Notes under the pieces: generated by a model | Database searches by the model: none | What the model saw: only the letters and a program-made list of their open reading frames with translations | What the model was told of the DNA's origin: nothing | Shown: piece after piece, positions 2,383 through 22,862 of the stretch | Layout: each line of letters opens with the position of its first letter | Numbering within the stretch: position 1 is the stretch's first letter | Virus record (IMG/VR): IMGVR_UViG_3300006793_000305 | Span: 1-22,887 of that record | Reading direction: 5' to 3' (one strand) | Source of the DNA: a virus | DNA: 22,887 bases | Made by a program: the position numbers and the translations under genes

Positions 2383-3279
2383 ATGGCAACTACTACAAGT
2401 ATTACAACTACTTATGCTGGAGAAAAAGCTGCTAGTTTTATCTCTGCTGCATTATTATCTTCTAACACTATCGAAAAAGGTGGTATGGAAGTTAAACCAA
2501 ACATTAAATTTAAACAAGTATTAAGAAAATTAGAAACTGGTGATTTAATCGCTGATGGTTCTTGTGATTTCGATGCAACTTCTTCTGTAACTCTTACTGA
2601 AAGAACTATCGAGCCTAAAGAATTTCAAGTAAACCTTGCTTTATGTAAGAAAGATTTCCGTTCTGATTGGGATGCTATCTCTATGGGTATGTCTGCTCAT
2701 GATAACTTACCAAAGTCTTTTCAAGATTACCTTTTAGCACACGTTGTTGCTAAGGTTGCTGCAAAGAACGAACAAAATATCTGGAATGGTGCTGCTGCTA
2801 ACGCTGGTGAGTACGCTGGATTATTAGAATTATTCGCTGCTGATGCTGACGTTATTGACGTTGCTGCTGCAACTATCGATGCTTCTAATGTAATTGATGA
2901 GTTAGGAAAAGTTATTGATGCTATTCCAGCTGAATTATATGGTAATGATGATTTATCTATATACATTTCTCAATCTACTGCAAGAGCTTACGTAAGAGCT
3001 CAAGCTGCTTTAGGTTACAAAGATTTATACCATGTAGGTCAAACTCAAATGGACTTTGAAGGAACTAGACTTATGGTATGTAACGGTCTTCCAGCTAACA
3101 AAATGGTAGCTGCTGAAAAATCAAACTTATTCTTCGGTACTGGACTTATGTCTGATATGAATGAAGTAAAAGTTATTGATATGGCTGATATCGATGGTTC
3201 TCAAAACGTAAGAATAGTAATCAGATTTACTGCTGCTGTTCAATACGCAATTGGTGCTGAAATCGTACTTTACGCATAA
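2383..3279 (+). CDS. Probable major capsid protein (298 aa)
   Basis: The length, gene position and residue pattern fit an HK97-fold major capsid protein of a Bacteroidota phage. An N-terminal helical segment is followed by a central region with aspartate and aromatic residues (KKDFRSDWDAISMGMSAHD around 90-108), a helix with QNIWNG, and a C-terminal beta-rich part ending in FTAAVQYAIGAEIVLY. It follows the acidic scaffold-like gene. The codons are the most GCT/GAA-biased in the window, as expected for the most expressed virion gene. The leader carries CAAAAACGCTAA directly before the start. The capsid assignment is by pattern and context; no catalytic motif exists to prove it. Confidence 0.75.
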   Translation: MATTTSITTTYAGEKAASFISAALLSSNTIEKGGMEVKPNIKFKQVLRKLETGDLIADGSCDFDATSSVTLTERTIEPKEFQVNLALCKKDFRSDWDAISMGMSAHDNLPKSFQDYLLAHVVAKVAAKNEQNIWNGAAANAGEYAGLLELFAADADVIDVAAATIDASNVIDELGKVIDAIPAELYGNDDLSIYISQSTARAYVRAQAALGYKDLYHVGQTQMDFEGTRLMVCNGLPANKMVAAEKSNLFFGTGLMSDMNEVKVIDMADIDGSQNVRIVIRFTAAVQYAIGAEIVLYA

Positions 3280-3281
3280 TC

Positions 3282-3331
3282 TTTAATATAATAATAATCT
3301 TTAATATGCACCCTCTTTAATATAGGGGGTG
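3282..3331 (+). promoter_or_regulatory. TTTAATAT triplet ending in a conserved-loop hairpin
   Basis: Three copies of CTTTAATAT occur in the 77-nt gap after the capsid gene (TTTAATAT at 3282, 3300 and 3316). The last forms the loop of a hairpin: CACCCTC (3309-3315) pairs with GGGGGTG (3325-3331), seven pairs including one T-G, around the nine-nt loop TTTAATATA. There is no strong U-tract, so it may be an RNA-processing, mRNA-stability or protein-binding site rather than a classical terminator. The same loop recurs at 7201 and 10511. Confidence 0.6.
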
Positions 3332-3356
3332 TTATATTATACAATACATAAATAAT

Positions 3357-3887
3357 ATGAGCTGTGATATCACACTAGGACGTAAAGAAGCATGTAAAAC
3401 CTCTGTAGGTGGTTTGAAAGCTGTTTACTTCATAAACTACGATGGTGCTCTTTTATCTGGTGCAACTTTTACTGGTGAATTAATGACTGGTTTAAATGCT
3501 GCAACTGATGCGTTCAAATACGAACTTAAAGGAGACAATAATACTTTCGAAGAAGCTAATGAAAACAGTAGAGATAATGGAACTTCGTTCTTTACTCAAA
3601 CTGGAGCATTAGTATTGAAAGTACAAGACTCTGCTACTCAAGCAGAATTAACTTTACTAAGTTACGGTAGACCTCACGTAATTATCGAGGACCATAACGG
3701 AAACTTTAGATTAGCTGGTGCTAAGAATGGAGTTGAAGTATCTGTATCAACTTCTACAGGTGGTGCAATGGGTGACTTAAATGGTTACAATTTATCTTTT
3801 GAAGGTAAAGAAGTTAACCTTTCTACTTATGTTGACTCTGCACTTATGGGTGCTGTTGACGGTTTCGTTGTAACTGAAGGTGCTTAA
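3357..3887 (+). CDS. Conserved Bacteroidota-phage structural protein (176 aa)
   Basis: The N-terminus MSCDITLGRKEACK followed by GGLKAVYFINYDG, and the later segments SRDNGTSFFTQ, LLSYGRPHVIIEDHNGNFRLAG and TGGAMGDLNGYNLSFEGKE, match a pattern I associate with virion proteins next to capsid genes in phages of Bacteroidota. The predicted fold is beta-rich, and there is no signal peptide. Two cysteines lie close to the N-terminus (residues 3 and 13). A tail-tube, decoration or other auxiliary role is possible and cannot be settled here. It sits between two hairpins (3309-3331 upstream, a strong terminator at 3919-3950 downstream), so it may also be made from its own short transcript. Confidence 0.7.
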   Translation: MSCDITLGRKEACKTSVGGLKAVYFINYDGALLSGATFTGELMTGLNAATDAFKYELKGDNNTFEEANENSRDNGTSFFTQTGALVLKVQDSATQAELTLLSYGRPHVIIEDHNGNFRLAGAKNGVEVSVSTSTGGAMGDLNGYNLSFEGKEVNLSTYVDSALMGAVDGFVVTEGA

Positions 3888-3918
3888 TATCTACTAATAG
3901 ATTTAAGACAATAAAATA

Positions 3919-3950
3919 GAGTCATCTCTTCTGAGGTGGCTCTTTTTTTT
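3919..3950 (+). terminator. Strong intrinsic terminator
   Basis: GAGTCATCTC (3919-3928) pairs with GAGGTGGCTC (3933-3942) over ten positions including two T-G pairs, with a TTCT loop, and is followed directly by eight T residues (3943-3950). This is a textbook rho-independent terminator closing the transcript that covers the capsid and the 176-aa structural gene. Confidence 0.88.
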
Positions 3951-3969
3951 GCTCTATATCAAACTAAAA

Positions 3970-3993
3970 CAAAAACGCTAATTTAGCGTTATA
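3970..3993 (+). promoter_or_regulatory. CAAAAACGC inverted repeat plus CGTTATA, candidate late regulatory site
   Basis: AACGCTAA (3974-3981) and TTAGCGTT (3983-3990) are perfect 8-bp inverted arms around a single T, and the sequence runs on into CGTTATA (3987-3993), 5 nt before the next start codon. It sits straight after a strong terminator, where a new transcript must begin. A related element with 6-bp arms lies at 8740-8763. It could be a late promoter, an operator or a start-proximal RNA hairpin. Confidence 0.5.
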
Positions 3994-3998
3994 ATACT

Positions 3999-4565
3999 AT
4001 GATTATAACTAATACAGAATCCATACAAGTATTCAAGGCAATACTAAGGACAAACACTACATACGCACCTAGCGATTTGACTATCACACTATTAAGAGAA
4101 GGTCAGGAAGATGCAACTACTTACGTTGCTGACAGTTTAGTATACGAAGCTAATAATGTTTCTGTAACCTATACTGTTGATGATATAACTCTTTTAGACG
4201 GTCAAAGATTTCTTTTAAGTTTAACTGACTCTGCTAATAAATTATTATTTAGAGATAAGATGTCTGTTGAAGGAGAAGAGGTAGATTCTACAGGACAATT
4301 TACTTTTGTTTCTGATGAATTATCTGAAGATGAATATACATTGATAGATGTAAATACTTATGGTGGTGGAGATAAACATTATACTCATAACCAATCTTCT
4401 GCACAATCAACATGGAATATAACACATAATTTAGGTAAGTTTCCTTCTTTATCAGTTGTTGATTCTAGTAAGAATGTAGTTATAGGAGATGTTCAATATA
4501 TAGATGCTAACAGTTTATCTGTTACATTTACTGCTGCATTTAGTGGCAAAGCATACATGAATTAA
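3999..4565 (+). CDS. Tail/fibre-associated structural protein (188 aa)
   Basis: The C-terminal part (about 125-188) has the pattern HNQSSAQSTWNITHNLGKFPS, then VVDSSKNVVIGDVQYIDANS and VTFTAAFSGKAYMN. Such W-x-I-x-HNLG...FSGKAY segments are found at the end of many phage fibre and tail-attached proteins, where they form a small beta domain. The N-terminal 110 residues are beta-rich and of unknown family. Its start lies just downstream of a terminator and the CAAAAACGC inverted repeat, so it probably opens the fibre transcript (4-8.7 kb). A role as baseplate or fibre-linking protein is inferred. Confidence 0.7.
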   Translation: MIITNTESIQVFKAILRTNTTYAPSDLTITLLREGQEDATTYVADSLVYEANNVSVTYTVDDITLLDGQRFLLSLTDSANKLLFRDKMSVEGEEVDSTGQFTFVSDELSEDEYTLIDVNTYGGGDKHYTHNQSSAQSTWNITHNLGKFPSLSVVDSSKNVVIGDVQYIDANSLSVTFTAAFSGKAYMN

Positions 4566-4604
4566 ACACAATATATATATATAATAATTTAAAACAATTA
4601 ACAA

Positions 4605-7181
4605 ATGGCAATTAAATACTTAAGTAATATTTCCTTAGAAGGGAATGAATTACAAAATGTAAAGATTCACCCAGCTGGAACTTCTCCAGCAAATGGAGCT
4701 GGTGGATTATGGTACGATACCTCGACCAATAAATTAATGGTTAACAATGGTAGTTCTTGGTATTCTGTAAATGGTGATTTAGAATCATTATCTTCAGCTA
4801 ATACAAATGTATTAACTATTGGTGGTACTGCTACTGCTCCTACTGTAGACGTAGTAACTGCTGCTATAGCTGACGGTGGAACTGGATTAGCAACTGCTGA
4901 CCAGATTTATGATTTCGTAACTAGTCAAGTTGGTGCTGTACCTTCTGAAACTGTTACAAGTTTAGGATTAAGCTCTAACATTCTTACATATACTGATGAG
5001 AATGGTTCTGATACAGATATCGATTTATCTTTATATTTAGATGACAGTAACTTAGCTAGATTAACTTCTGGTTCTATTAATGGTTCAACTGGTCTCGCAA
5101 CATTCACAAGAGATGATAGTACTACTTTTACTATTGATATGTCTGCATTCTTAGATGGTATTACAGTAAACAATACTTTAACAAGTACTTCTACTACAGA
5201 AGGTTTATCTGCTGCTCAGGGTAAAGTCTTAAAAGACCTTATTGATGCATTACCAACTGAAGATACTAACACACAATTAAGTGATGGTGATATAGCTGCA
5301 TTTGGATACATTAAAGATTACACTCCTACTGAAGCTGAAATAACTGCACATGAAGATGCTTTAACAATAGACTATAGTCAATTAACTAGTACTCCAACTG
5401 TACCAACTAATAACAATCAATTATCTAACGGTGCTAATTATATCACTGGTGTTGATTTTGATGAAATTGGTGGAACTCAATCTGACTTAAGTTTAAGTGG
5501 ATTTAATAATGATTTAACTTTAGCTCCAAGTAATGCTGAACAAAACGTACAGTCTGATTGGAATGCAACAAGTGGAGATGCATTTATACAAAACAAACCA
5601 AGTTTATTTGATGGAGCTTATTCTTCATTATCTGGTTTACCAACTATACCTACTAATAATAATCAGTTAACAAATGGTAGTAACTATATATCTGATTATA
5701 CAGTAACTAGTGCTGATGTAACTGCTCACGAAGGTGACATTACAATAACAGAATCTCAAATTAGTGATTTATCTCACTTCTCTGGTTCTTATAATGATTT
5801 AACTGATGTACCTTCTAATTTAGGTGCTCAAAATTTATCTATAGCTGGTAACACTATATCTTTAGATGGTGGTGGAAACAGTATTGATGTTTATGACCAA
5901 ACTTTAGCTACAACTGATGATGTAGAATTTAGAGATATTACTTCTAGTAATAAGATATTAGCTGAAGAAAGTTACAGTGGAACAACTGGTGCTCCTCATG
6001 CGACTATTAAAGGATTACAAACTACAACTGCAAAAGGTTCATTTAACATTGCAATGTATGGTGATTCTAGTTCTACTGGTTCAAATGAATCTGGATATAA
6101 CTACGGTTCTTATTCTAGAGGTCAGATGAACTCTTCTAATGGTTATGATGGTGTTATATACGGTGCTTACAATGAAGCTAAATATAATGGTTCTGACCCT
6201 AATGGAAATAATGCTTCTTGGAGTTCTGCTTACGGTAGTCAAACTGTAGCTAAGGTAACAGGTACTGGTGATTTAGGATATGTAATTGGTGATAATGTTT
6301 ACTCTATAATAGATAATGCTGCAGCTGATGTAGAATTCTTACAAGGTCAACATACAACATTAGATTTAAAGAATGGACATGTTTCTGGTTCTGCTGCTGT
6401 AATGTTATTAGATGCTGACCATACTAATGCTACTATAGACGGAGATTTAGCATACCTACAGATTCAAGGTGATACTTTACCAACACCTACTTCTGGAACA
6501 GTAAGAGCTATAAATTCTGATTCTACTTACCCATCTAAATTTGATGGTTTAATTGAATCTACTAGCTTTGTTAAATCTGGTGGTACTTCAAGTCAGTTCT
6601 TAAAAGCTGATGGTACAGTTGATTCTAACACATATGTAACTAGTGCTTCTATTCCAACTAACAACAATCAGTTGACAAATGGAGCTAACTACATAACTGG
6701 TTATACTGTTACAAGTGGAGATGTTACTGCACATGAAGGAGATATAACTATTACTGAGTCTCAGATATCTGATTTAAATCATTTCTCTGGTGATTATAAT
6801 GACTTAAGTAATTTACCATCTATACCAACTGTAAGTACTGCAAGTACTACTGCTGCTGGTATTATAGAGATAGCTACTAATACAGAAGCTAAAGCTGGTT
6901 CAATGACTAATAGAGCTGTAACTCCTCAAGGAGCTAAGCAATTAGTTGACCAACAAATAGCTGCTGATAAAGTAAATGTAACTATTGGTGATGGTACTAA
7001 TACAACTCTAACTGCAACACATAACTTTGGAAATAAGAAATGTTTAGTTTCTATAACTGAAGTTGCTACTGGTGATGAAGTTTATGCTGAAATAATAAAG
7101 AACACAAATGACGTAAGTGTTATATTTGGTTCTGCTCCAGCAACTGGTGCATACGAAGTAAGCATGTTTAAAATGAGTTAA
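4605..7181 (+). CDS. Repeat-rich tail fibre protein (858 aa)
   Basis: This is a long beta- and T/S/N/G-rich protein, typical of trimeric phage fibres. The N-terminus (MAIKYLSNISLEGNELQNVKI, then GLWYDTSTNKLMVNNGSSW) is a common fibre start that likely contacts the virion. Inside are imperfect repeats: PTNNNQLTNGANYI occurs near residues 266, 347 and 683, and the longer unit with DVTAHEGDITITESQISDL and SGSYNDL occurs twice (about 347-404 and 683-739). A GGTSSQFLKADG segment near 660 recurs in the next gene. The last 65 residues resemble the HNFG-type terminal domain of the preceding gene. Receptor binding is inferred from family resemblance. Confidence 0.82.
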   Translation: MAIKYLSNISLEGNELQNVKIHPAGTSPANGAGGLWYDTSTNKLMVNNGSSWYSVNGDLESLSSANTNVLTIGGTATAPTVDVVTAAIADGGTGLATADQIYDFVTSQVGAVPSETVTSLGLSSNILTYTDENGSDTDIDLSLYLDDSNLARLTSGSINGSTGLATFTRDDSTTFTIDMSAFLDGITVNNTLTSTSTTEGLSAAQGKVLKDLIDALPTEDTNTQLSDGDIAAFGYIKDYTPTEAEITAHEDALTIDYSQLTSTPTVPTNNNQLSNGANYITGVDFDEIGGTQSDLSLSGFNNDLTLAPSNAEQNVQSDWNATSGDAFIQNKPSLFDGAYSSLSGLPTIPTNNNQLTNGSNYISDYTVTSADVTAHEGDITITESQISDLSHFSGSYNDLTDVPSNLGAQNLSIAGNTISLDGGGNSIDVYDQTLATTDDVEFRDITSSNKILAEESYSGTTGAPHATIKGLQTTTAKGSFNIAMYGDSSSTGSNESGYNYGSYSRGQMNSSNGYDGVIYGAYNEAKYNGSDPNGNNASWSSAYGSQTVAKVTGTGDLGYVIGDNVYSIIDNAAADVEFLQGQHTTLDLKNGHVSGSAAVMLLDADHTNATIDGDLAYLQIQGDTLPTPTSGTVRAINSDSTYPSKFDGLIESTSFVKSGGTSSQFLKADGTVDSNTYVTSASIPTNNNQLTNGANYITGYTVTSGDVTAHEGDITITESQISDLNHFSGDYNDLSNLPSIPTVSTASTTAAGIIEIATNTEAKAGSMTNRAVTPQGAKQLVDQQIAADKVNVTIGDGTNTTLTATHNFGNKKCLVSITEVATGDEVYAEIIKNTNDVSVIFGSAPATGAYEVSMFKMS
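5646..5818 (+). repeat. Fibre repeat unit, copy A (partner at 6651-6822)
   Basis: This encodes IPTNNNQLTNGSNYIS then YTVTSADVTAHEGDITITES and QISDLSHFSGSYNDL. It is nearly identical in protein sequence to the segment encoded at 6651-6822, while the nucleotide sequences differ at many silent sites. A shorter piece of the unit occurs near 5399-5452. Confidence 0.8.
6572..6822 (+). repeat. Fibre repeat unit, copy B, with segment shared with the next fibre gene
   Basis: The first part (6572-6690) encodes SGGTSSQFLKADGTVDS followed by PTNNNQLTNGANYIT, which recurs in the neighbouring gene at about 7519-7643. The second part repeats the DVTAHEGDITITES unit of 5646-5818. Shared blocks between the two fibre genes indicate duplication or recombination. 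Confidence 0.75.
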
Positions 7182-7200
7182 TAAATAATAATGATACAAA

Positions 7201-7239
7201 GTACCCTCTTTAATATAGGGGGTACATTTGTTTAATATA
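7201..7239 (+). promoter_or_regulatory. Conserved-loop hairpin (TTTAATATA) between fibre genes
   Basis: GTACCCTC (7201-7208) pairs with GGGGGTAC (7218-7225) over eight pairs (one T-G) around the loop TTTAATATA (7209-7217). A further TTTAATATA follows at 7231-7239, just before the leader of the next gene. It has the same loop as the hairpins at 3309 and 10511, and no long U-tract. Confidence 0.65.
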
Positions 7240-7250
7240 ATAACAATAAT

Positions 7251-8318
7251 ATGAGTGTAAAATTTGTAAATGATATAGCTGTTGAAACTGGTAAAATAGA
7301 ATTAAACCATACTGCAAACGAAATAGTTGCTGATGGTTATCTAGATATCGTTAGTTCTGATACTAGTGCTACTGATGTACTTGATATAGGTACTTCTACT
7401 AATTCTTGGAAGTCTGTAGGTATAAATGCTGCTACTATTCAATTTAAGAATGGAGTTGATGCTGATTTTGTTAATATAGACCCAGATGATGGAGATATTA
7501 TATTAACTGGTGGATATAAAGTAGATGGTGGAACAAGTTCACAGTTTCTTAAAGCAGATGGTTCTGTAGATTCTACAACTTACGCTACTGGTACTATACC
7601 AACAAACAACAACCAGTTAACTAATGGTGCTAATTATATTACTTCTGCTTCTATACCTAGTATACCTGATAATTCTGATTATGTTGATTTAACCTCAACT
7701 CAAACTATAGGTGGTACTAAAACATTTAGTAATAATGTTAAATTTAGTGGTACATTTGGTAACTTAGATACTGTTAATGATAAAGGTATGCAGTTCGAAA
7801 TAGGAACTTCTACTACTAATACATTAAGAACAGATGCTGATAACTTCAGAATCTATTTTGGTGGTACTAGTGGAATAGGACAAGCATATAATATATCACA
7901 AACTGGTCAGCATGACTGGGATGGAACTTCAGGTTCTAATAAGATGAGATTAACAGGTGCTGGAGATTTACATGTAGATGGTGATGTTATAGCTTATTCT
8001 ACGACTGTTTCAGACGTTTCTATGAAAGATAATATCAAAACAATAGAAAACGCTACAGAAACTGTAAAAGAGCTTAGAGGAGTATCTTATGAATGGAATA
8101 AAGGTTCTAGAAAAGGTAAATCTGAAATAGGATTAATTGCTCAAGAAGTTGAACAAGTATTACCTGATTTAGTACACGAAAAAGAAATGATGAATGGTGA
8201 TACAATTAAAACTGTAGATTACCAAAAAATGATAGGATTATTAATAGAGTCAAATAAAGAATTATCTGCAAGACTAGAAAAATTAGAATGTGGATGTTCA
8301 GCATGTGACTGCAAATAA
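7251..8318 (+). CDS. Tail fibre/spike with C-terminal S74 intramolecular chaperone (355 aa)
   Basis: Residues 254-345 match the intramolecular chaperone of endosialidase (Peptidase_S74): SDVSMKDNIKTIENA, YEWNKGSRKGKSEIGLIAQ, EVEQVLPDLV and VDYQKMIGLLIESNKEL. In this family the chaperone trimerises the fibre and then cuts itself off just before the conserved Ser of the SDxxxK motif, here S254, with K259 as the conserved Lys. The upstream part holds the GGTSSQFLKADG and PTNNNQLTNGANYI segments (about 93-131) shared with the 858-aa fibre. The chaperone ends in an unusual Cys cluster (CGCSACDCK, residues 347-355). This is likely a receptor-binding fibre or its distal subunit. Confidence 0.88.
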   Translation: MSVKFVNDIAVETGKIELNHTANEIVADGYLDIVSSDTSATDVLDIGTSTNSWKSVGINAATIQFKNGVDADFVNIDPDDGDIILTGGYKVDGGTSSQFLKADGSVDSTTYATGTIPTNNNQLTNGANYITSASIPSIPDNSDYVDLTSTQTIGGTKTFSNNVKFSGTFGNLDTVNDKGMQFEIGTSTTNTLRTDADNFRIYFGGTSGIGQAYNISQTGQHDWDGTSGSNKMRLTGAGDLHVDGDVIAYSTTVSDVSMKDNIKTIENATETVKELRGVSYEWNKGSRKGKSEIGLIAQEVEQVLPDLVHEKEMMNGDTIKTVDYQKMIGLLIESNKELSARLEKLECGCSACDCK

Positions 8319-8324
8319 AAGAAT

Positions 8325-8735
8325 ATGGCATTACAATCAAGTGGACAAATAAGTTTAGATGATATTAGAGTTGAAATAGGGGCTACACAATCAAACGTAA
8401 GTTTAGGTAGTATGTCTGCTGTTGCTGGGTTTACAGGTGAAGATGCTATGTCTGAATTTTATGGATATAGTCATATAACTTATTCTACATGGACAGGTTC
8501 TTCTAGAGCTAATACTAGTACAGTAGCTTGTAGTTATAGTGTAGGTACTACTTATTATCATAATAATGGTTCTGGTGGTTCTGATACTTATCCAGCTATA
8601 AATGATTATGTTTATAGTGATACTGGTTTAAGTGTTAAATTAGCTGGTGGATATTATAAAGTAAATACTCCATCTTTTGATTGGGTAAGAGTTAATGGAT
8701 TTGGAAGAATATTTGCAACAGGTATCTGTTCGTAG
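8325..8735 (+). CDS. Small tail-fibre-associated protein (136 aa)
   Basis: The N-terminus MALQSSGQISLDDIRVEIG is a motif common to small virion proteins encoded next to fibre genes in marine and Bacteroidota phages. It is followed by a short helix-like part ending MSEFYGYSH and a Gly/Ser/Tyr-rich beta-type C-terminus. It starts 6 nt after the S74 fibre and ends with TAG just before a CAAAAACGC hairpin. It probably caps or joins a fibre, but the exact role is unknown. Confidence 0.7.
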   Translation: MALQSSGQISLDDIRVEIGATQSNVSLGSMSAVAGFTGEDAMSEFYGYSHITYSTWTGSSRANTSTVACSYSVGTTYYHNNGSGGSDTYPAINDYVYSDTGLSVKLAGGYYKVNTPSFDWVRVNGFGRIFATGICS

Positions 8736-8739
8736 CAGA

Positions 8740-8763
8740 CAAAAACGCACTTTTTGCGTTATA
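8740..8763 (+). promoter_or_regulatory. Second CAAAAACGC inverted repeat with CGTTATA
   Basis: AACGCA (8744-8749) pairs with TGCGTT (8755-8760) around a five-nt loop and continues as CGTTATA (8757-8763), 30 nt before the portal start. It shares CAAAAACGC and GCGTTATA with the element at 3970-3993 but has a different arm sequence with the pairing preserved. Possible late promoter, operator or RNA hairpin. Confidence 0.5.
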
Positions 8764-8793
8764 TAAGTATAATAAAATAATAACAATAATAAT

Positions 8794-9987
8794 ATGAATA
8801 AGAATAGTAATGTAAGAATGTTAAACCTATCAGGTTACGAAGCCCCTAAGGTGGAAGAAGTTGTAGGTAAGGAATGGATTTCTTACGGAGAAAATAACGA
8901 TTACTTTGATAGTCTTATTGAAAGATATCTTGGTTCACCTACTAACAGTAGATGTATTAATGGTATTGTAGATATGATTGCTGGTAGAGGATTAGAATGT
9001 ACTGATTCAGAATTATTTCCTGAGCAACATGCTAAAATGAAATTATTACTTAAGAAAAGAGAAGTAAAAAGAGTAGCACATGATTATAAAATGTTAGGTC
9101 AAGCTGCTGTTCAAGTTATATACAACAAATCTAAAACTAAAATAGTAAAGATAGTTCATCACCCAATGGAAACATTGAGAGCTGAGAAATGTGATTCTAA
9201 AGGAGTTATAAGAGCTTATTACTATCATCCTAAATGGGCTGAATTAAAGCATAGTGATTCTCCAAAAAGAATACCTACATTTAGAAATGGAACAAAAGGT
9301 CAAAAGGTAGAATTATATATCTTTAAACCATATAGAAGTGGATTCTATTATTACTCACCAGTTGATTATACTGGATGTTTACAATACTGTTCACTAGAAG
9401 AAGAAGTATCTAACTATCATATTAATAATATTAAGCAAGGATTACAACCTACTTTATTAATGAACTTTAATAATGGAGTACCTAATGCTGAAACACAAGA
9501 GTTAATAGAAAGAAAGATATATGACAAGTTTTCAGGTTCATCTAATGCTGGTAAATTTATACTAGCTTTTAATGATTCACAAGAAACTGCTGCTGATATT
9601 CAACCAATACATTTACCTGATGCTCATGCTCAATATCAATTTATGAGTGATGAAGCTACACAGAAGATTATGTTAGGTCATGGTATTGTATCACCAATAT
9701 TATTAGGTATTAAAGATAATACTGGATTTGGTAACAATGCTGAAGAATTAAGAACTGCTGCTGTATTGATGGATAACGTAATTATTAAGCCATTACAAGA
9801 TGGTTTATTAGATGGTTTTGAAGAAATACTTGCATTTAATAAAATTAACCTAGATTTATACTTTGTTACTATTCAACCAATAGAATTTACTTCTATGGAG
9901 AATATATCAACTGCTATCAAGAGAGAAGAAGAAACTGGAGAGAAAGCAGCAGACCAAGATGAATCTGTAAAAGAAGAAGGAAAATAA
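8794..9987 (+). CDS. Portal protein (397 aa)
   Basis: The portal forms the dodecameric ring through which DNA enters the capsid and to which tail parts bind. The pattern ISYGENNDYFDSLIERYLGS, then SPTNSRCINGIVDMIAGRGL near the N-terminus, is typical of the compact portal proteins of Bacteroidota phages. The C-terminal half carries KIMLGHGIVSPILLGIKDN followed by GFGNNAEELRTAAVLMDN, the conserved portal region before the DNA-facing tunnel helix. The last 25 residues are charged (EEETGEKAADQDESVKEEGK). At 397 aa it is short for the fold but near complete. The next gene starts 1 nt after the stop, consistent with a connector partner. Confidence 0.85.
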   Translation: MNKNSNVRMLNLSGYEAPKVEEVVGKEWISYGENNDYFDSLIERYLGSPTNSRCINGIVDMIAGRGLECTDSELFPEQHAKMKLLLKKREVKRVAHDYKMLGQAAVQVIYNKSKTKIVKIVHHPMETLRAEKCDSKGVIRAYYYHPKWAELKHSDSPKRIPTFRNGTKGQKVELYIFKPYRSGFYYYSPVDYTGCLQYCSLEEEVSNYHINNIKQGLQPTLLMNFNNGVPNAETQELIERKIYDKFSGSSNAGKFILAFNDSQETAADIQPIHLPDAHAQYQFMSDEATQKIMLGHGIVSPILLGIKDNTGFGNNAEELRTAAVLMDNVIIKPLQDGLLDGFEEILAFNKINLDLYFVTIQPIEFTSMENISTAIKREEETGEKAADQDESVKEEGK

Positions 9988-9988
9988 T

Positions 9989-10498
9989 ATGAAAGCACTA
10001 TTTATAAATGTTAAAGACTTAAAACGTAAGTCTATAATAAGTGGTAATATAGATGGAGATAAAATAATTCAATTTATCGAAGTTGCACAAGATACTGCTA
10101 TTCAAAATTATTTAGGTGGTAAATTATATAAGAAGATGCAATCATTAATTGTTAACGATACATTAACTGATGCTGAAAACGCTAATTATAAATTATTACT
10201 AACTGATTATATAAAACCTATGTTGATATGGTATACTCAAGCAAATTACATTCCATTTGCTGCTTATACTGTATCTAACGGTGGTATATTTAAGAGAAGT
10301 CCAGAGAATACTAATGAAGCTAGTCAAGAAGAAATATCTTTATTAACTGCTAAAGTTACTGACACTGCTGATTTTTATACTAGAAGATTCATAGATTTTA
10401 TGAATTACAATAGTACTCTATATCCTGAATATACTTCTAATCAAGATAACGATATGTATCCTGATAGAGATGTTCAATATACTGGATTTGTTCTGTAA
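9989..10498 (+). CDS. Probable head-tail connector protein (169 aa, DUF6712-like)
   Basis: A mostly helical protein with FIEVAQDTAIQNYLGGKLY near the N-terminus and LLTDYIKPMLIWYTQANYIPF in the middle, a pattern I associate with the DUF6712-type proteins next to portals in phages of Bacteroidota. Their helical layout resembles head-completion or gp6-like connector proteins, which bind under the portal ring. Its start is only 1 nt after the portal stop, so the two are translationally linked. The conserved-loop hairpin and terminator at 10511 follow the stop. The connector role is inferred from position and fold pattern. Confidence 0.65.
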   Translation: MKALFINVKDLKRKSIISGNIDGDKIIQFIEVAQDTAIQNYLGGKLYKKMQSLIVNDTLTDAENANYKLLLTDYIKPMLIWYTQANYIPFAAYTVSNGGIFKRSPENTNEASQEEISLLTAKVTDTADFYTRRFIDFMNYNSTLYPEYTSNQDNDMYPDRDVQYTGFVL

Positions 10499-10501
10499 AT
10501 G

Positions 10502-10541
10502 TTTAATATATACCCTTGTTTAATATACAGGGGTATTTTTT
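10502..10541 (+). terminator. Conserved-loop hairpin with U-tract, terminator
   Basis: TACCCTTG (10511-10518) pairs with CAGGGGTA (10528-10535) over eight pairs around the loop TTTAATATA (10519-10527) and is followed by six T (10536-10541). A linear TTTAATATA precedes it at 10502. This is the one copy of the conserved-loop family with a clear terminator tail. Confidence 0.75.
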
Positions 10542-10553
10542 ACACTTAATAAT

Positions 10554-10640
10554 ATGAGTAACTTATATAAACCTAAGACAGCTAATGTCGAAAAACTAAA
10601 AGAATACCTTAACAAGGTAAAAGAAAAAACTAAAAAATAA
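10554..10640 (+). CDS. Tiny basic peptide (28 aa)
   Basis: ATG 10554 opens a 28-codon frame (MSNLYKPKTANVEKLKEYLN, then KVKEKTKK) ending in TAA. The leader cttaataATG matches the other starts in this genome. The peptide is Lys-rich and probably a single helix. It stands between the connector terminator and the lysis block. Function is unknown; its small size leaves some doubt that it is a real gene. Confidence 0.45.
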   Translation: MSNLYKPKTANVEKLKEYLNKVKEKTKK

Positions 10641-12284: not shown

Positions 12285-12447
12285 AAAAGTAGAGTTACAT
12301 TTAATTATGTAGCTCTTTTTTTTTGCATAGTCCTCAGATGTCTAATCCATTATTATGTTTAATATGCTACTTATTCAGTAACTAGGCTATATTCTAGTAT
12401 TTTTTTATATTTTATATTTAGACTAATAATATGCTATATATATTAAA
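12285..12447 (-). ncRNA. Predicted short leftward RNA (hypothetical)
   Basis: From the leftward promoter to the bidirectional hairpin at 12291-12316 the minus strand has only frames of a few codons, so any transcript of about 160 nt would be non-coding. Both ends are inferred from the promoter match and from the T-rich tail on the minus strand after the hairpin. No RNA family is recognised. Confidence 0.25.
12291..12324 (+). terminator. Strong terminator after the holin gene
   Basis: GAGTTACAT (12292-12300) pairs with ATGTAGCTC (12307-12315), nine pairs with one T-G, and is followed by nine T (12316-12324). A run of A's just upstream (gaaaaag) would give a T-run on the other strand, so it may also end leftward transcripts. 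Confidence 0.88.
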
Positions 12448-14750: not shown

Positions 14751-14814
14751 CTAAAAAGAGGTGTTTAATATCCATATTAATAGAGGGGGATTCTAAAAAG
14801 AGGTGCTTCCCCCT
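14751..14814 (+). promoter_or_regulatory. Leader with direct repeat, palindrome and C/G-rich hairpin
   Basis: The 126-nt gap before the ATPase gene holds CTAAAAAGAGGTG twice (14751-14763 and 14793-14805, exactly 42 nt apart). It also holds a palindrome TTAATAT-cc-ATATTAA (14765-14780) and a hairpin AGGGGGA/TCCCCCT (14784-14790 with 14808-14814) whose 17-nt loop contains the second repeat. It could attenuate, process or control translation of downstream genes. Confidence 0.5.
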
Positions 14815-16106: not shown

Positions 16107-16253
16107 ATGTATATAACAAGTAGATTAATAGTAGGACTAGTTTTTGGATTTGAAGTAGTAGAAGTTCAGGAGTCAGAAGATTTTGCATATAATGTGTATA
16201 AATTAGATTTAGGATTCGTTAGTGTTAATATGATTCCTACACCTAGAGACTAA
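16107..16253 (+). CDS. Unknown small protein (48 aa)
   Basis: A compact frame between RusA and the sigma-like gene. Its ATG is 1 nt after the RusA stop (TAATATG) and its TAA overlaps the next ATG by one base (TAATG), so tight coupling supports that it is real. The sequence begins with a hydrophobic patch (LIVGLVFGF) and is then acidic and probably beta-rich. No family is recognised. Confidence 0.6.
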   Translation: MYITSRLIVGLVFGFEVVEVQESEDFAYNVYKLDLGFVSVNMIPTPRD

Positions 16254-16825
16254 TGATACTAAAGAAACTAGCAAGAAGCCATAAAGATTGGCATAGGATG
16301 GTACTAGGGTTTGGAGCAAATCCAAGTATAGCAGAAGATATAGTACAAGATATGTATTTAAAGATACATGGAATGGTAGAAAGAGGTAAAGATATTACTT
16401 ATGGTGATGATGATGTAAATAGGTTTTATGTTTATCTTACTTTAAAATCTCTACATGGAGATTACTATAGACAGAAAAATAAATTAACAGTTTATTCTAC
16501 TGATGATAACCCAGAAGAGAATAAATATGATAGAATATCTAGTAATGATGATTACGATGGGATTGAGCAAATGGCATTTGAAAAAACTTATGCAAAAGTA
16601 ATGGCTGTCCTAAATAAATTACCATTATCAGATAACTATCCATACTTTAAGAATATATTTATAGGATACAATACAAGAGACCTTTCTATGAGAAGAATGG
16701 CAGAAGAAACTGGTATCAACGTAAATAGTATTTTTAATACATTAACCAAAGTAATGGCTATTGTAAGAGAAGAATGTGGAGAAGATTTAGAAGATTACTT
16801 TAATAAAGATTATCACTTAATATAA
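16253..16825 (+). CDS. Sigma-70-like (ECF-type) RNA polymerase factor (190 aa)
   Basis: The N-terminal part carries the region-2 signature NPSIAEDIVQDMYLKIHGMV (23-42), the helix that docks on core RNA polymerase, followed by a helical segment ending in LKSLHGDYYRQKNK. The C-terminal part (about 139-175) has a region-4-like HTH: LSMRRMAEETGINVNSIFNT, then LTKVMAIVREE. A Glu/Asp/Asn-rich linker joins them. It probably redirects host polymerase to phage promoters. It is early-transcribed (P3 unit), so a natural target is the late virion genes, which lack the TTTG/TAnnTTTG promoters. Target specificity is inference. Confidence 0.78.
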   Translation: MILKKLARSHKDWHRMVLGFGANPSIAEDIVQDMYLKIHGMVERGKDITYGDDDVNRFYVYLTLKSLHGDYYRQKNKLTVYSTDDNPEENKYDRISSNDDYDGIEQMAFEKTYAKVMAVLNKLPLSDNYPYFKNIFIGYNTRDLSMRRMAEETGINVNSIFNTLTKVMAIVREECGEDLEDYFNKDYHLI

Positions 16826-16831
16826 ATAAAT

Positions 16832-17236
16832 ATGGCAAAGAGAAAATCAACAAAGAAAGCTAAACCAGTTGTTAAGAAATCAGAAGGTTTAGGAGATACA
16901 GTAGAGAAAGTATTAGAAGCTACTGGTATCGCAAAAATCGCTAAGTTTGTTCTTGGAGATGATTGTGGTTGTGATGAAAGAAAAGCATTATTAAATAAAA
17001 TGTATCCTTATCAAAAACCTAATTGTCTAGTAGAAACTGAGTACAATTACTTAACTAAGTACTTTAAAAAGTATCCTGAACATAAAGGAACTTTAAGAGC
17101 TGCTGATGTACGTGAATTATATTCTATATATAATCGTGTAATGAATCAGAAGAAAGTACCTAGTAATTGTCCTTCATGTGTTAGAAATGTACTTAATGCA
17201 TTGAAGTCAGTTGTTAAGACTTACGAAGATGAATAA
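16832..17236 (+). CDS. Conserved Cys-containing Bacteroidota-phage protein (134 aa)
   Basis: A Lys-rich basic N-terminus (AKRKSTKKAKPVVKK) leads into an amphipathic helix (LGDTVEKVLEATGIAKIAKF). LGDDCGCDERK (C45, C47), PNCL (C65) and SNCPSCVRN (C113, C116) follow. The paired Cys could bind zinc. I associate the DDCGC-ERK pattern with proteins of unknown function in phages of Bacteroidota. It starts 6 nt after the sigma-like gene and is the last gene before a strong terminator. With its basic tail it may bind DNA or RNA polymerase together with its neighbour, but no role is proven. Confidence 0.7.
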   Translation: MAKRKSTKKAKPVVKKSEGLGDTVEKVLEATGIAKIAKFVLGDDCGCDERKALLNKMYPYQKPNCLVETEYNYLTKYFKKYPEHKGTLRAADVRELYSIYNRVMNQKKVPSNCPSCVRNVLNALKSVVKTYEDE

Positions 17237-21031: not shown

Positions 21032-21254
21032 AAAAACTATACCTGATTATGCATTTCACCAAAAATCAATGGTGTGGTGCATAAGAAATGGTTATAGAAT
21101 ATATCCTGAAAGAAACGATAGAATGGAATGGAATATAGCAGTAGAATTAGGATTAAAAAAAGCTGTATTTCCTGAACCATATAAACAATCTGAGATACAA
21201 TATGGTCTATATCAGGCATTTAAAACAATATACCTAAAACATAATAAGGACTAA
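20997..21254 (+). CDS. Conserved small phage protein (85 aa)
   Basis: Begins with a Lys-rich tail (AKKKKEKKENRKTIP), then CIRNGYRIYPE, MEWNIAVELG and IQYGLYQAFKTIYLKH. This resembles small proteins next to terminase genes in phages of Bacteroidota, but the function is unknown to me. The ATG overlaps the previous gene by 35 nt. It could bind DNA through the basic tail. The terminase genes follow 14 nt after its stop. Confidence 0.65.
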   Translation: MAKKKKEKKENRKTIPDYAFHQKSMVWCIRNGYRIYPERNDRMEWNIAVELGLKKAVFPEPYKQSEIQYGLYQAFKTIYLKHNKD

Positions 21255-21256
21255 TA

Positions 21257-21263
21257 CGTTATA
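21257..21263 (+). promoter_or_regulatory. CGTTATA box before terminase genes
   Basis: The same CGTTATA found at 1704, 3987 and 8757 occurs 5 nt before the small terminase start. It is short, so chance is not excluded. Confidence 0.25.
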
Positions 21264-21268
21264 TATAT

Positions 21269-21658
21269 ATGGCTAGAAGAAAGAAAAATTCATCAGAGAT
21301 TAAACCAACTGATGGCAGAAAAAATAATAGTAGATTACAAGCTAAACCTTTATCTACTAAAGATAAGTTATTACCAGCTAAGAATAATAACGCTAAGAGA
21401 GAACGTATATCTGCTTATGCAGTAGATGCTATGAAAAATGTATTTGGCTCTGAAGCTGAAGCATTTGAAAACTTAGCTAGATTAGGTAAAGATAACTTTA
21501 ATCAAATGAAATTATTATTAGAGTATGCTTATGGTAAACCTTCTGATTCTATATCAGATAAAGGTGGTCCAGTTAATAAGATATCTGCTCCAGTAATTAA
21601 CTTTATTAATCAAAATGCTCCTCAAGAGGATGATACAATTGATATAACAAATGACTAA
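21269..21658 (+). CDS. Probable terminase small subunit (129 aa)
   Basis: The basic, disordered N-terminus (about 1-48) is followed by a helical core VDAMKNVFGSEAEAFENLAR, then FNQMKLLLEYAYGKPSDS, a pattern of TerS-like proteins in which helices bind the packaging site. The C-terminus is an extended tail (APVINFINQNAPQEDDTIDI) that could contact TerL. It overlaps the large subunit gene by 8 nt, the usual coupling of the two subunits. The assignment rests on pattern and neighbour. Confidence 0.75.
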   Translation: MARRKKNSSEIKPTDGRKNNSRLQAKPLSTKDKLLPAKNNNAKRERISAYAVDAMKNVFGSEAEAFENLARLGKDNFNQMKLLLEYAYGKPSDSISDKGGPVNKISAPVINFINQNAPQEDDTIDITND

Positions 21659-22862
21659 TATAAACTTAAATCCAAAATATATACCATTATTCCAATCCAA
21701 AGATAGATACTATGTTATCACTGGTGGTAGGGGTTCTGGTAAATCATTTGGTATTTCATTATTCTTATTGAATCTAACTTATGAAAAAGGTCATAAGGTG
21801 TTGTTTAGTAGATATACATTAATGTCTGCTCAAACTTCTATTATACCTGAATTTATAGAGAAGATTGATTTAATGGATAAGCATAGTGATTTCCGTATAA
21901 CTAAAGATGAGATAATTAATCTTACTACTGGTAGTTCTATTATGTTTAAAGGTATTAGAACTTCATCTGGTAACCAAACTGCTGCACTTAAATCTTTAAA
22001 TGGTGTAACTACATTTGTATTGGATGAAGCTGAAGAGTTAATTAATGAGGATGATTTTAATAAGATTGATTTCTCTATTAGGTCTCAATTAAAACAAAAT
22101 AGATGTATATTAGTATTGAATCCAGCTACTAAAGAGCATTGGATATACCAAAGATTCTTTCAGTTTAAAGGTATTGAAGGTGGTTTTAACGGTGCTAAAG
22201 ATGGTGCTACTTATATACATACAACTTACCAAGATAATAAAGCAAATCTATCTGAATCGTTTCTTAAGCAATTATATGAAATGAAACTAAGAAATCCACA
22301 AAAGTATGAACATACTGTAATGGGTGGTTGGTTAGCAAAAGCTGAAGGTACTATAATTAGAAACTGGAAGGTAGGTGAGTTTGTACAGACTGAATTAATG
22401 TGTTATGGTCAGGATTATGGATTTAGTAATGATAAAAATACATTAGTACAAGTTTCTGTTGATAAACCAGCTAGAAAAATGTATGTAAGAGAGATTTATG
22501 GTAAAACTAATATGTCTACCTCTGAGATTGCATTTGCAAATAAAAAAGAATGTGGAGCGCAATTAATAATTTGTGATAATTCTGAGCCACGTTTAACAAA
22601 TGAATTAAAACAAACTGGATTAAATATTAAGCCTACTATTAAAAAGAAAGGTAGTATATTATCTGGTATAGCTTTAATGCAAGATTATCAAATGATAGTG
22701 TCTAGAGATAGTAAAGATATAATAAGAGAGCTTAACAATTATGTTTGGCATGAGAAAGGTTTGAAGCCTATTGATAAATGGAATCATTATATTGATGCTA
22801 CTAGATATGCATTACAATATTTAGTTCAAGGTATGGCTTCAGGTCGTTACGTAATAAGATAA
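21651..22862 (+). CDS. terL: Terminase large subunit (403 aa)
   Basis: The packaging motor couples ATP hydrolysis to DNA translocation and cuts concatemers. The ATPase motifs are Walker A GGRGSGKS (25-32) and Walker B FVLDEAEEL with the catalytic Glu (122-130). The C-terminal RNase-H-like nuclease shows YGQDYGFSND (D255), LIICDNSEPRLTNELK (D309) and YIDATRYALQY (D382), the three metal-binding acids. It resembles the Terminase_3 / PBSX type. The length is normal and the frame ends at TAA 22860-22862, 25 nt before the window edge, so the gene is complete. Confidence 0.95.
   Translation: MTNINLNPKYIPLFQSKDRYYVITGGRGSGKSFGISLFLLNLTYEKGHKVLFSRYTLMSAQTSIIPEFIEKIDLMDKHSDFRITKDEIINLTTGSSIMFKGIRTSSGNQTAALKSLNGVTTFVLDEAEELINEDDFNKIDFSIRSQLKQNRCILVLNPATKEHWIYQRFFQFKGIEGGFNGAKDGATYIHTTYQDNKANLSESFLKQLYEMKLRNPQKYEHTVMGGWLAKAEGTIIRNWKVGEFVQTELMCYGQDYGFSNDKNTLVQVSVDKPARKMYVREIYGKTNMSTSEIAFANKKECGAQLIICDNSEPRLTNELKQTGLNIKPTIKKKGSILSGIALMQDYQMIVSRDSKDIIRELNNYVWHEKGLKPIDKWNHYIDATRYALQYLVQGMASGRYVIR

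Follow-up and report, generated by a model that had tools for sequence, protein, structure and literature searches.

A sense-strand signal repeated behind late genes of marine Bacteroidota phages and its possible relation to boxA

The boxA element is the NusB-S10 antitermination signal of rRNA operons and keeps RNA polymerase from terminating early. It normally acts from leaders and not from 3' UTRs, but a 3' UTR can serve as the leader of the next unit. The nut site of phage lambda consists of boxA together with the boxB hairpin, T-phi of phage T7 is an intrinsic terminator after the capsid gene, and REP/BIME elements are repeated intergenic palindromes. The locus compared here with these systems is a window of 22,887 bases (the whole stretch of DNA analyzed), which is a complete IMG/VR record. 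Its nearest isolates are the Nonlabens phages P12024L/S, with identities of 34% in the major capsid protein (MCP) and 49% in TerL. The phages carrying the repeated RNA signal are marine and make up a family of Bacteroidota phages. The signals are tentatively read as boxA/nut-like elements on late transcripts, in the window built into intra-operon attenuator hairpins; with the same reserve, TTTAATATA is taken as the form that a sense-strand RNA signal just past late-gene stop codons has in the window clade.

The sequence-only reading had described three hairpins with a common loop and particular stems, linear copies near each of them, a related loop in the terminator at 12291, and a single copy with a clear U-tract, and all of these were found (Table 1), the good U-tract being at 10510 only. 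Folded with their flanks, hairpins 1, 2 and 3 reached -17.2, -17.3 and -14.6 kcal/mol (z = -4.4, -3.7 and -3.2), and the first T of TTTAATATA is predicted to pair with its last A, leaving a 7-nt loop. The hairpins are GC-rich and stable as in intrinsic terminators, and among the three a U-tract, T6, was present in hairpin 3 only. The palindrome noted at 14765 exists as a sequence (at 14764) but not as a strong hairpin; it is predicted to be a linear copy 5' of a separate GGGGG/CCCCC hairpin. Comparison with Rfam gave no described family, only tRNA and one sub-threshold match. A 28-codon ORF (MSNLYKPKTANVEKLKEYLNKVKEKTKK) at 10554-10637, directly 3' of hairpin 3, is conserved in the relatives L005, G001 and G003.

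Table 1. Positions of the signal copies, hairpins, terminators, putative promoters and relevant genes in the window.
Feature	Position	Strand	Context
Putative late promoter AACA-N15-CGTTATA	1685-1710, 3968-3993, 8738-8763 (one mismatch), 21238-21263	+	before late genes and terS
Major capsid protein-like gene (phrog_11320)	2383-3279	+	upstream of hairpin 1; capsid role assigned from gene order
Linear motif copy 1	3282-3290	+	3 nt past MCP stop
Linear motif copy	3300-3307	+	directly 5' of hairpin 1; conserved in L004-L010
Hairpin 1 (GCACCCTC-TTTAATATA-GGGGGTGT)	3308-3332	+	between MCP and gene 3357
Canonical terminator with T8	3918-3943	+	closes MCP unit
Hairpin 2 (GTACCCTC-TTTAATATA-GGGGGTAC)	7201-7225	+	between tail-fibre gene 4605 and S74 fibre gene 7251
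Linear motif copy	7231-7239	+	3' of hairpin 2
Linear motif copy	10502-10510	+	4 nt past gene 9989 stop
Hairpin 3 (ATACCCTTG-TTTAATATA-CAGGGGTAT)	10510-10536	+	after gene 9989; followed by T6
Intrinsic terminator with T9, related loop ATTTAATTAT	12291-12316	+	conserved in G001
Linear motif copy TGTTTAATATG	12358-12366	+	after lysis operon
Linear motif copy	14764-14771	+	43 nt past SSB-like gene, 5' of GGGGG/CCCCC hairpin
Putative phage sigma factor	16253-16825	+	weak Sigma70_r2
terL	21651-22862	+	25 nt left before record end

The window contains ten copies of TTTAATATA against 2.8 expected, a number reached by none of 100 shuffles. All but one of the seven sense copies are intergenic, the exception (20083) overlapping a stop codon. 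Sense copies of TTTAAYAT in the intergenic DNA of the window numbered nine where 1.05 were expected (none of 500 shuffles of the intergenic DNA alone gave as many), the antisense copies being at or below expectation. The earlier view of the motif as an element between genes was thus borne out: it is far commoner between genes than inside them, on the sense strand only, and the loop motif of the window is not a product of chance. Enrichment of intergenic sense copies extended to G001 (23 observed, 1.87 expected), G003 (12 and 0.88) and L005 and was weaker in G004 and G006; G005, G007 and the isolate P12024L did not show it. When five clade genomes were pooled, noncoding TTTAAYAT was present in 53 sense copies versus one antisense copy. 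The clade copies are single, paired or triple and lie mostly 2-30 nt past stop codons. This placement, in untranslated stretches and on the sense strand relative to the genes, is by sequence position that of boxA.

When eight clade hairpins were aligned on the loop, 95% of the stem positions were paired and two-sided changes were present at seven of the eight stem pairs (0 of 500 shuffles), in agreement with the earlier observation that the stems change sequence yet keep pairing. Because these eight had been chosen as hairpins, all 53 distinct noncoding clade copies were tested by exchanging 5' and 3' flanks between copies. Strong stems surrounded 16 of them, compared with 5.1 after swapping (0 of 500), so the display of the motif in hairpins is real in the clade. 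Around the motif in the wider tandem arrays outside the clade, pairing was not significant (35 of 205 versus 30.7). The covariation bears on a simpler explanation, according to which the hairpins are plain intercistronic attenuators or 3'-end stabilisers that lower downstream expression and protect mRNA ends, with a loop common by duplication and no factor involved. Duplication would copy both stem and loop, whereas here the stems are wholly different while the loop is kept; also the hairpin-less linear copies and arrays are equally conserved, and strand and 3'-end position are strict. Plain attenuation is therefore considered rather unlikely, but it agrees well with the site behind the MCP gene.

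The 80 MCP relatives gave 56 distinct comparable post-MCP intergenic regions, and a hairpin of -8 kcal/mol or better was kept in 55 of these 56 non-independent samples regardless of the loop. Many of the hairpins have U-tracts, with at least six U in the eight following positions in 13 of the 56 relatives, and the one at G001:9315 is a full terminator with T7. Position is conserved at this site and the loop is not: outside the closest clade the loops are unrelated, and one factor universally binding the loop is therefore excluded. The sequence-only reading had called the loop invariant and had set against this the possibility of random loops in the homologous hairpins of relatives. Invariance holds in the closest relatives (at least 92% MCP identity) only, and it fails in the third hairpin of L005, which carries TATAATATA, and in the post-MCP hairpins of other relatives. 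In a set of 65-68% relatives the loops read CTTTAA[T/C/G]TAG, the variable position being the N of boxA, a coincidence that may be due to chance.

The pattern AACA-N15-CGTTATA occurs four times in the window against 0.43 expected (0 of 100 shuffles reached four), and is a likely late promoter for the phage sigma factor. With N16 spacing nothing was found, and N15 fits; similar CGTTATA sites are present in G001, G003 and L005. In P12024L, a gene before terS/terL is annotated as Sigma-70 region 2. A basic cysteine-containing protein encoded at 16832-17236, directly after the sigma gene, is conserved in most relatives and is a possible partner in late transcription. Blocks of TTTGGTRGTTCGCA...TA-TTTG before early genes (12541, 13198, 13786, 17277 and 18174) are probable host-type Bacteroidota promoters. 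Together with the T8 and T9 terminators (3918 and 12291), the putative late promoters divide the late region so that each of hairpins 1-3 lies inside a different putative late unit, which argues for intra-operon attenuators. Tuned partial termination, suggested earlier, is accordingly the best fit for the hairpins, but it does not cover the motif as such, which is mainly a linear 3'-UTR repeat with a boxA-like sister form. For RNA processing and a dedicated loop-binding protein, both suggested by the sequence-only reading, the evidence pointed neither way.

In more distant relatives the motif was found as linear tandem arrays at 3' ends, and its interpretation as mainly a hairpin element was therefore rejected. 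The hairpin is not the primary element, the motif being mainly a linear 3'-UTR tandem repeat common to many viruses. The array units, TGTTTAAYATRAKGGGG / ATGTTTAAYATRAKGGGG, follow terL on the sense strand with a period of about 19, and some of them end in ACCCC, so that neighbouring units can pair. A scan for two motif copies 4-14 nt apart, covering viral stretches and 257 Gb of bacterial genomes, identified more than 100 viral stretches, most of those listed being ATGTTTAAYATRAKGGGG arrays. Among the matches listed, 86 of the 94 arrays with a called upstream gene were on the same strand as that gene, the median distance being 85 nt from the upstream stop and 476 nt to the start that follows. 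A promoter element was rejected because of the long distance between the arrays and the next start and because the putative late promoter is a different motif. Also a host-derived repeat was rejected: the bacterial genomes gave 63 scattered tandem matches in 257 Gb, and the inspected ones were without the G4 unit except for a Prevotella MAG. This MAG (L269 1236) has tandem TTGTTTAACATAATGGGCTCTT, which suggests that gut Bacteroidales elements have the array as well. BLAST found neither form of array in INPHARED, and none is present in Rfam. AT-rich palindromes (TTTAGAATNATTCTAAATA) resembling Fur-box-like operators are repeated 3' of the arrays in L130 (about 8480-8600), L179, L164 and others.

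In the relatives the arrays begin 4-100 nt past the terL stop, and in near-complete distant relatives they are present at one or two places only, after terL and before the late operon. The direct repeats adjoin terL and recur at a second place 1-2 kb on, with variable genes flanked, which would suit a DNA-level element by terL, either a packaging site, replication iterons, or recombination sites on both sides of the small-gene module. In the window clade, however, the copies are dispersed over the 3' flanks of many late genes, tens of nucleotides or less from the stops, and their stems covary as in RNA, and a DNA-level element is very unlikely.

A sister unit, YTCTTAAACRYAGTAGG / YTCTTAAACATAGTAGG, occupies the same post-terL place in other lineages and was found in more than 100 viral stretches, but in none of 397 Flavobacteriaceae genomes. 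Among the 99 sister arrays listed, 98 follow a same-strand gene (median 39 nt), and 68 of the upstream genes are TerL homologues. The units at this place are lineage-specific (TTTAAYAT versus TTAAAC), and some lineages have 1-2 copies only. A phage-encoded RNA-binding regulator of late mRNAs, recognising UUUAAYAURA in looped or linear form and diverged in each lineage, would be consistent with such units, with the 17-25 nt spacing of the multi-copy ones and with the fixed sense strand. It is nevertheless improbable, as no candidate protein was found and the sister form resembles a host signal instead of an arbitrary one. Binding of the RbpB-type RRM was rejected, the consulted passages of the RbpB paper containing no matching motif.

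In the rrn operons of Flavobacteriaceae, GTTC[AT]T[TA]RACATATTG is present in the leader and in the 16S-23S spacer, the arrangement expected of boxA, and the sister units scored up to 14.8 bits (ATTCTTAAACATATTGG, L379) against the Flavobacteriaceae boxA matrix. The gamma-proteobacterial consensus is GYTCTTTAANA, the C4 of which matters in E. coli (PMC5725501). L346 carries a perfect match to this consensus, GCTCTTTAACA, and matches of at least 10/11, which sister arrays of several lineages reach, were present in 12 of 69 post-terL regions versus 2.5 in shuffled ones (maximum 8) and 2 antisense. Also the bases 5' of the sister core, which were outside the search pattern, read Y-Y-C as in boxA. 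By letter shuffling, the similarity to boxA had a p-value of 0.0006 for the sister form; window-type units showed a modest similarity in this comparison only, with p-values of 0.0016 for the window loop with its closing bases and 0.019 for the T unit. The boxA identity of the sister arrays is fairly supported by these letters. Window-type units scored at background (1-4 bits) against the Flavobacteriaceae matrix and GYTCTTTAANA was not enriched in the window (9 versus 8.1), so that a claim of boxA from the window alone was rejected. The link to boxA goes instead via intermediates (L346 and C-variants) and the shared position, and the boxA identity of the window motif is only indirect. With several boxA-like copies on each transcript, at one place or two, the arrays could also serve as decoys that sequester host NusB-S10 and thereby lower rRNA synthesis, but this would leave the placement inside late operons and the hairpin integration unexplained and fits poorly with the lineages of 1-2 copies, which makes it a highly improbable function.

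If the signals are boxA/nut-like, they probably tune how far late transcription runs, since their relatives resemble boxA. The boxA-like sister form (YTCTTAAACATAGTAGG) suggests that host NusB-S10, possibly with a phage factor, would be recruited to RNA polymerase by the signal; a loop of 9 nt may, however, not give NusB-S10 enough room. The polymerase would then pass the untranslated stretch with a lower tendency to terminate, and late transcription would continue. The window hairpins would be leaky terminators or attenuators setting the expression of the next gene, for example that of gene 3357 in proportion to MCP. In hairpins 1 and 2 the sequence CUCUUUAAUA takes in the loop as well as the 5' arm of the stem, so that motif binding and hairpin formation may compete and make read-through tunable. 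On this reading the motif letters UUUAAUAU would affect read-through past the hairpins or the terL array, and CUCUUUAAUAUA and CUUAAACAUAGUAGG RNAs are candidate ligands of flavobacterial NusB-S10. It is somewhat unlikely that the whole is a system both widespread and undescribed, with tandem boxA-like arrays 3' of terL in Bacteroidota phages and the same signal in intra-operon hairpins, by which the phages would use the antitermination machinery of rRNA to set the timing and proportions of late gene expression, binding and folding being mutually exclusive. If the arrays are boxA-like, an abundant group of marine phages would have tandem antitermination signals of rRNA type in its late region, and termination control in Bacteroidota could be approached genetically through them.

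Compared with boxA, the window unit has usually T for the C of boxA, with G at the C4 position and C4 often missing, while the sister arrays match the letters of Flavobacteriaceae and E. coli boxA and are predicted to be sense-strand RNA in an untranslated transcript. Unlike boxA, the phage arrays are tandem copies after late genes with G-rich spacers (GGGG/CCCC variants). As in the lambda nut site, a linear copy in the window is often followed by a hairpin within about 10 nt (3300/3308 and 10502/10510), but the loop of the hairpin repeats the linear motif and the sites follow stop codons. No antitermination protein, an N-like protein included, was recognised, so the lambda arrangement of boxA followed by a boxB hairpin bound by such a protein was not found, and the arrays elsewhere are without hairpins. 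The repeated intergenic hairpins of the window are like REP/BIME elements, but a REP-like mobile palindrome was rejected, as the stems are unrelated and only the loop is kept; the motif is also linear and strand-fixed. In comparison to late terminators of the T7 T-phi type, most of the phage hairpins have weak U-tracts, and the loop is conserved within the clade, while the hairpin directly after the MCP gene, its conserved position and the U-tracts of some members of the phage family are common to both.
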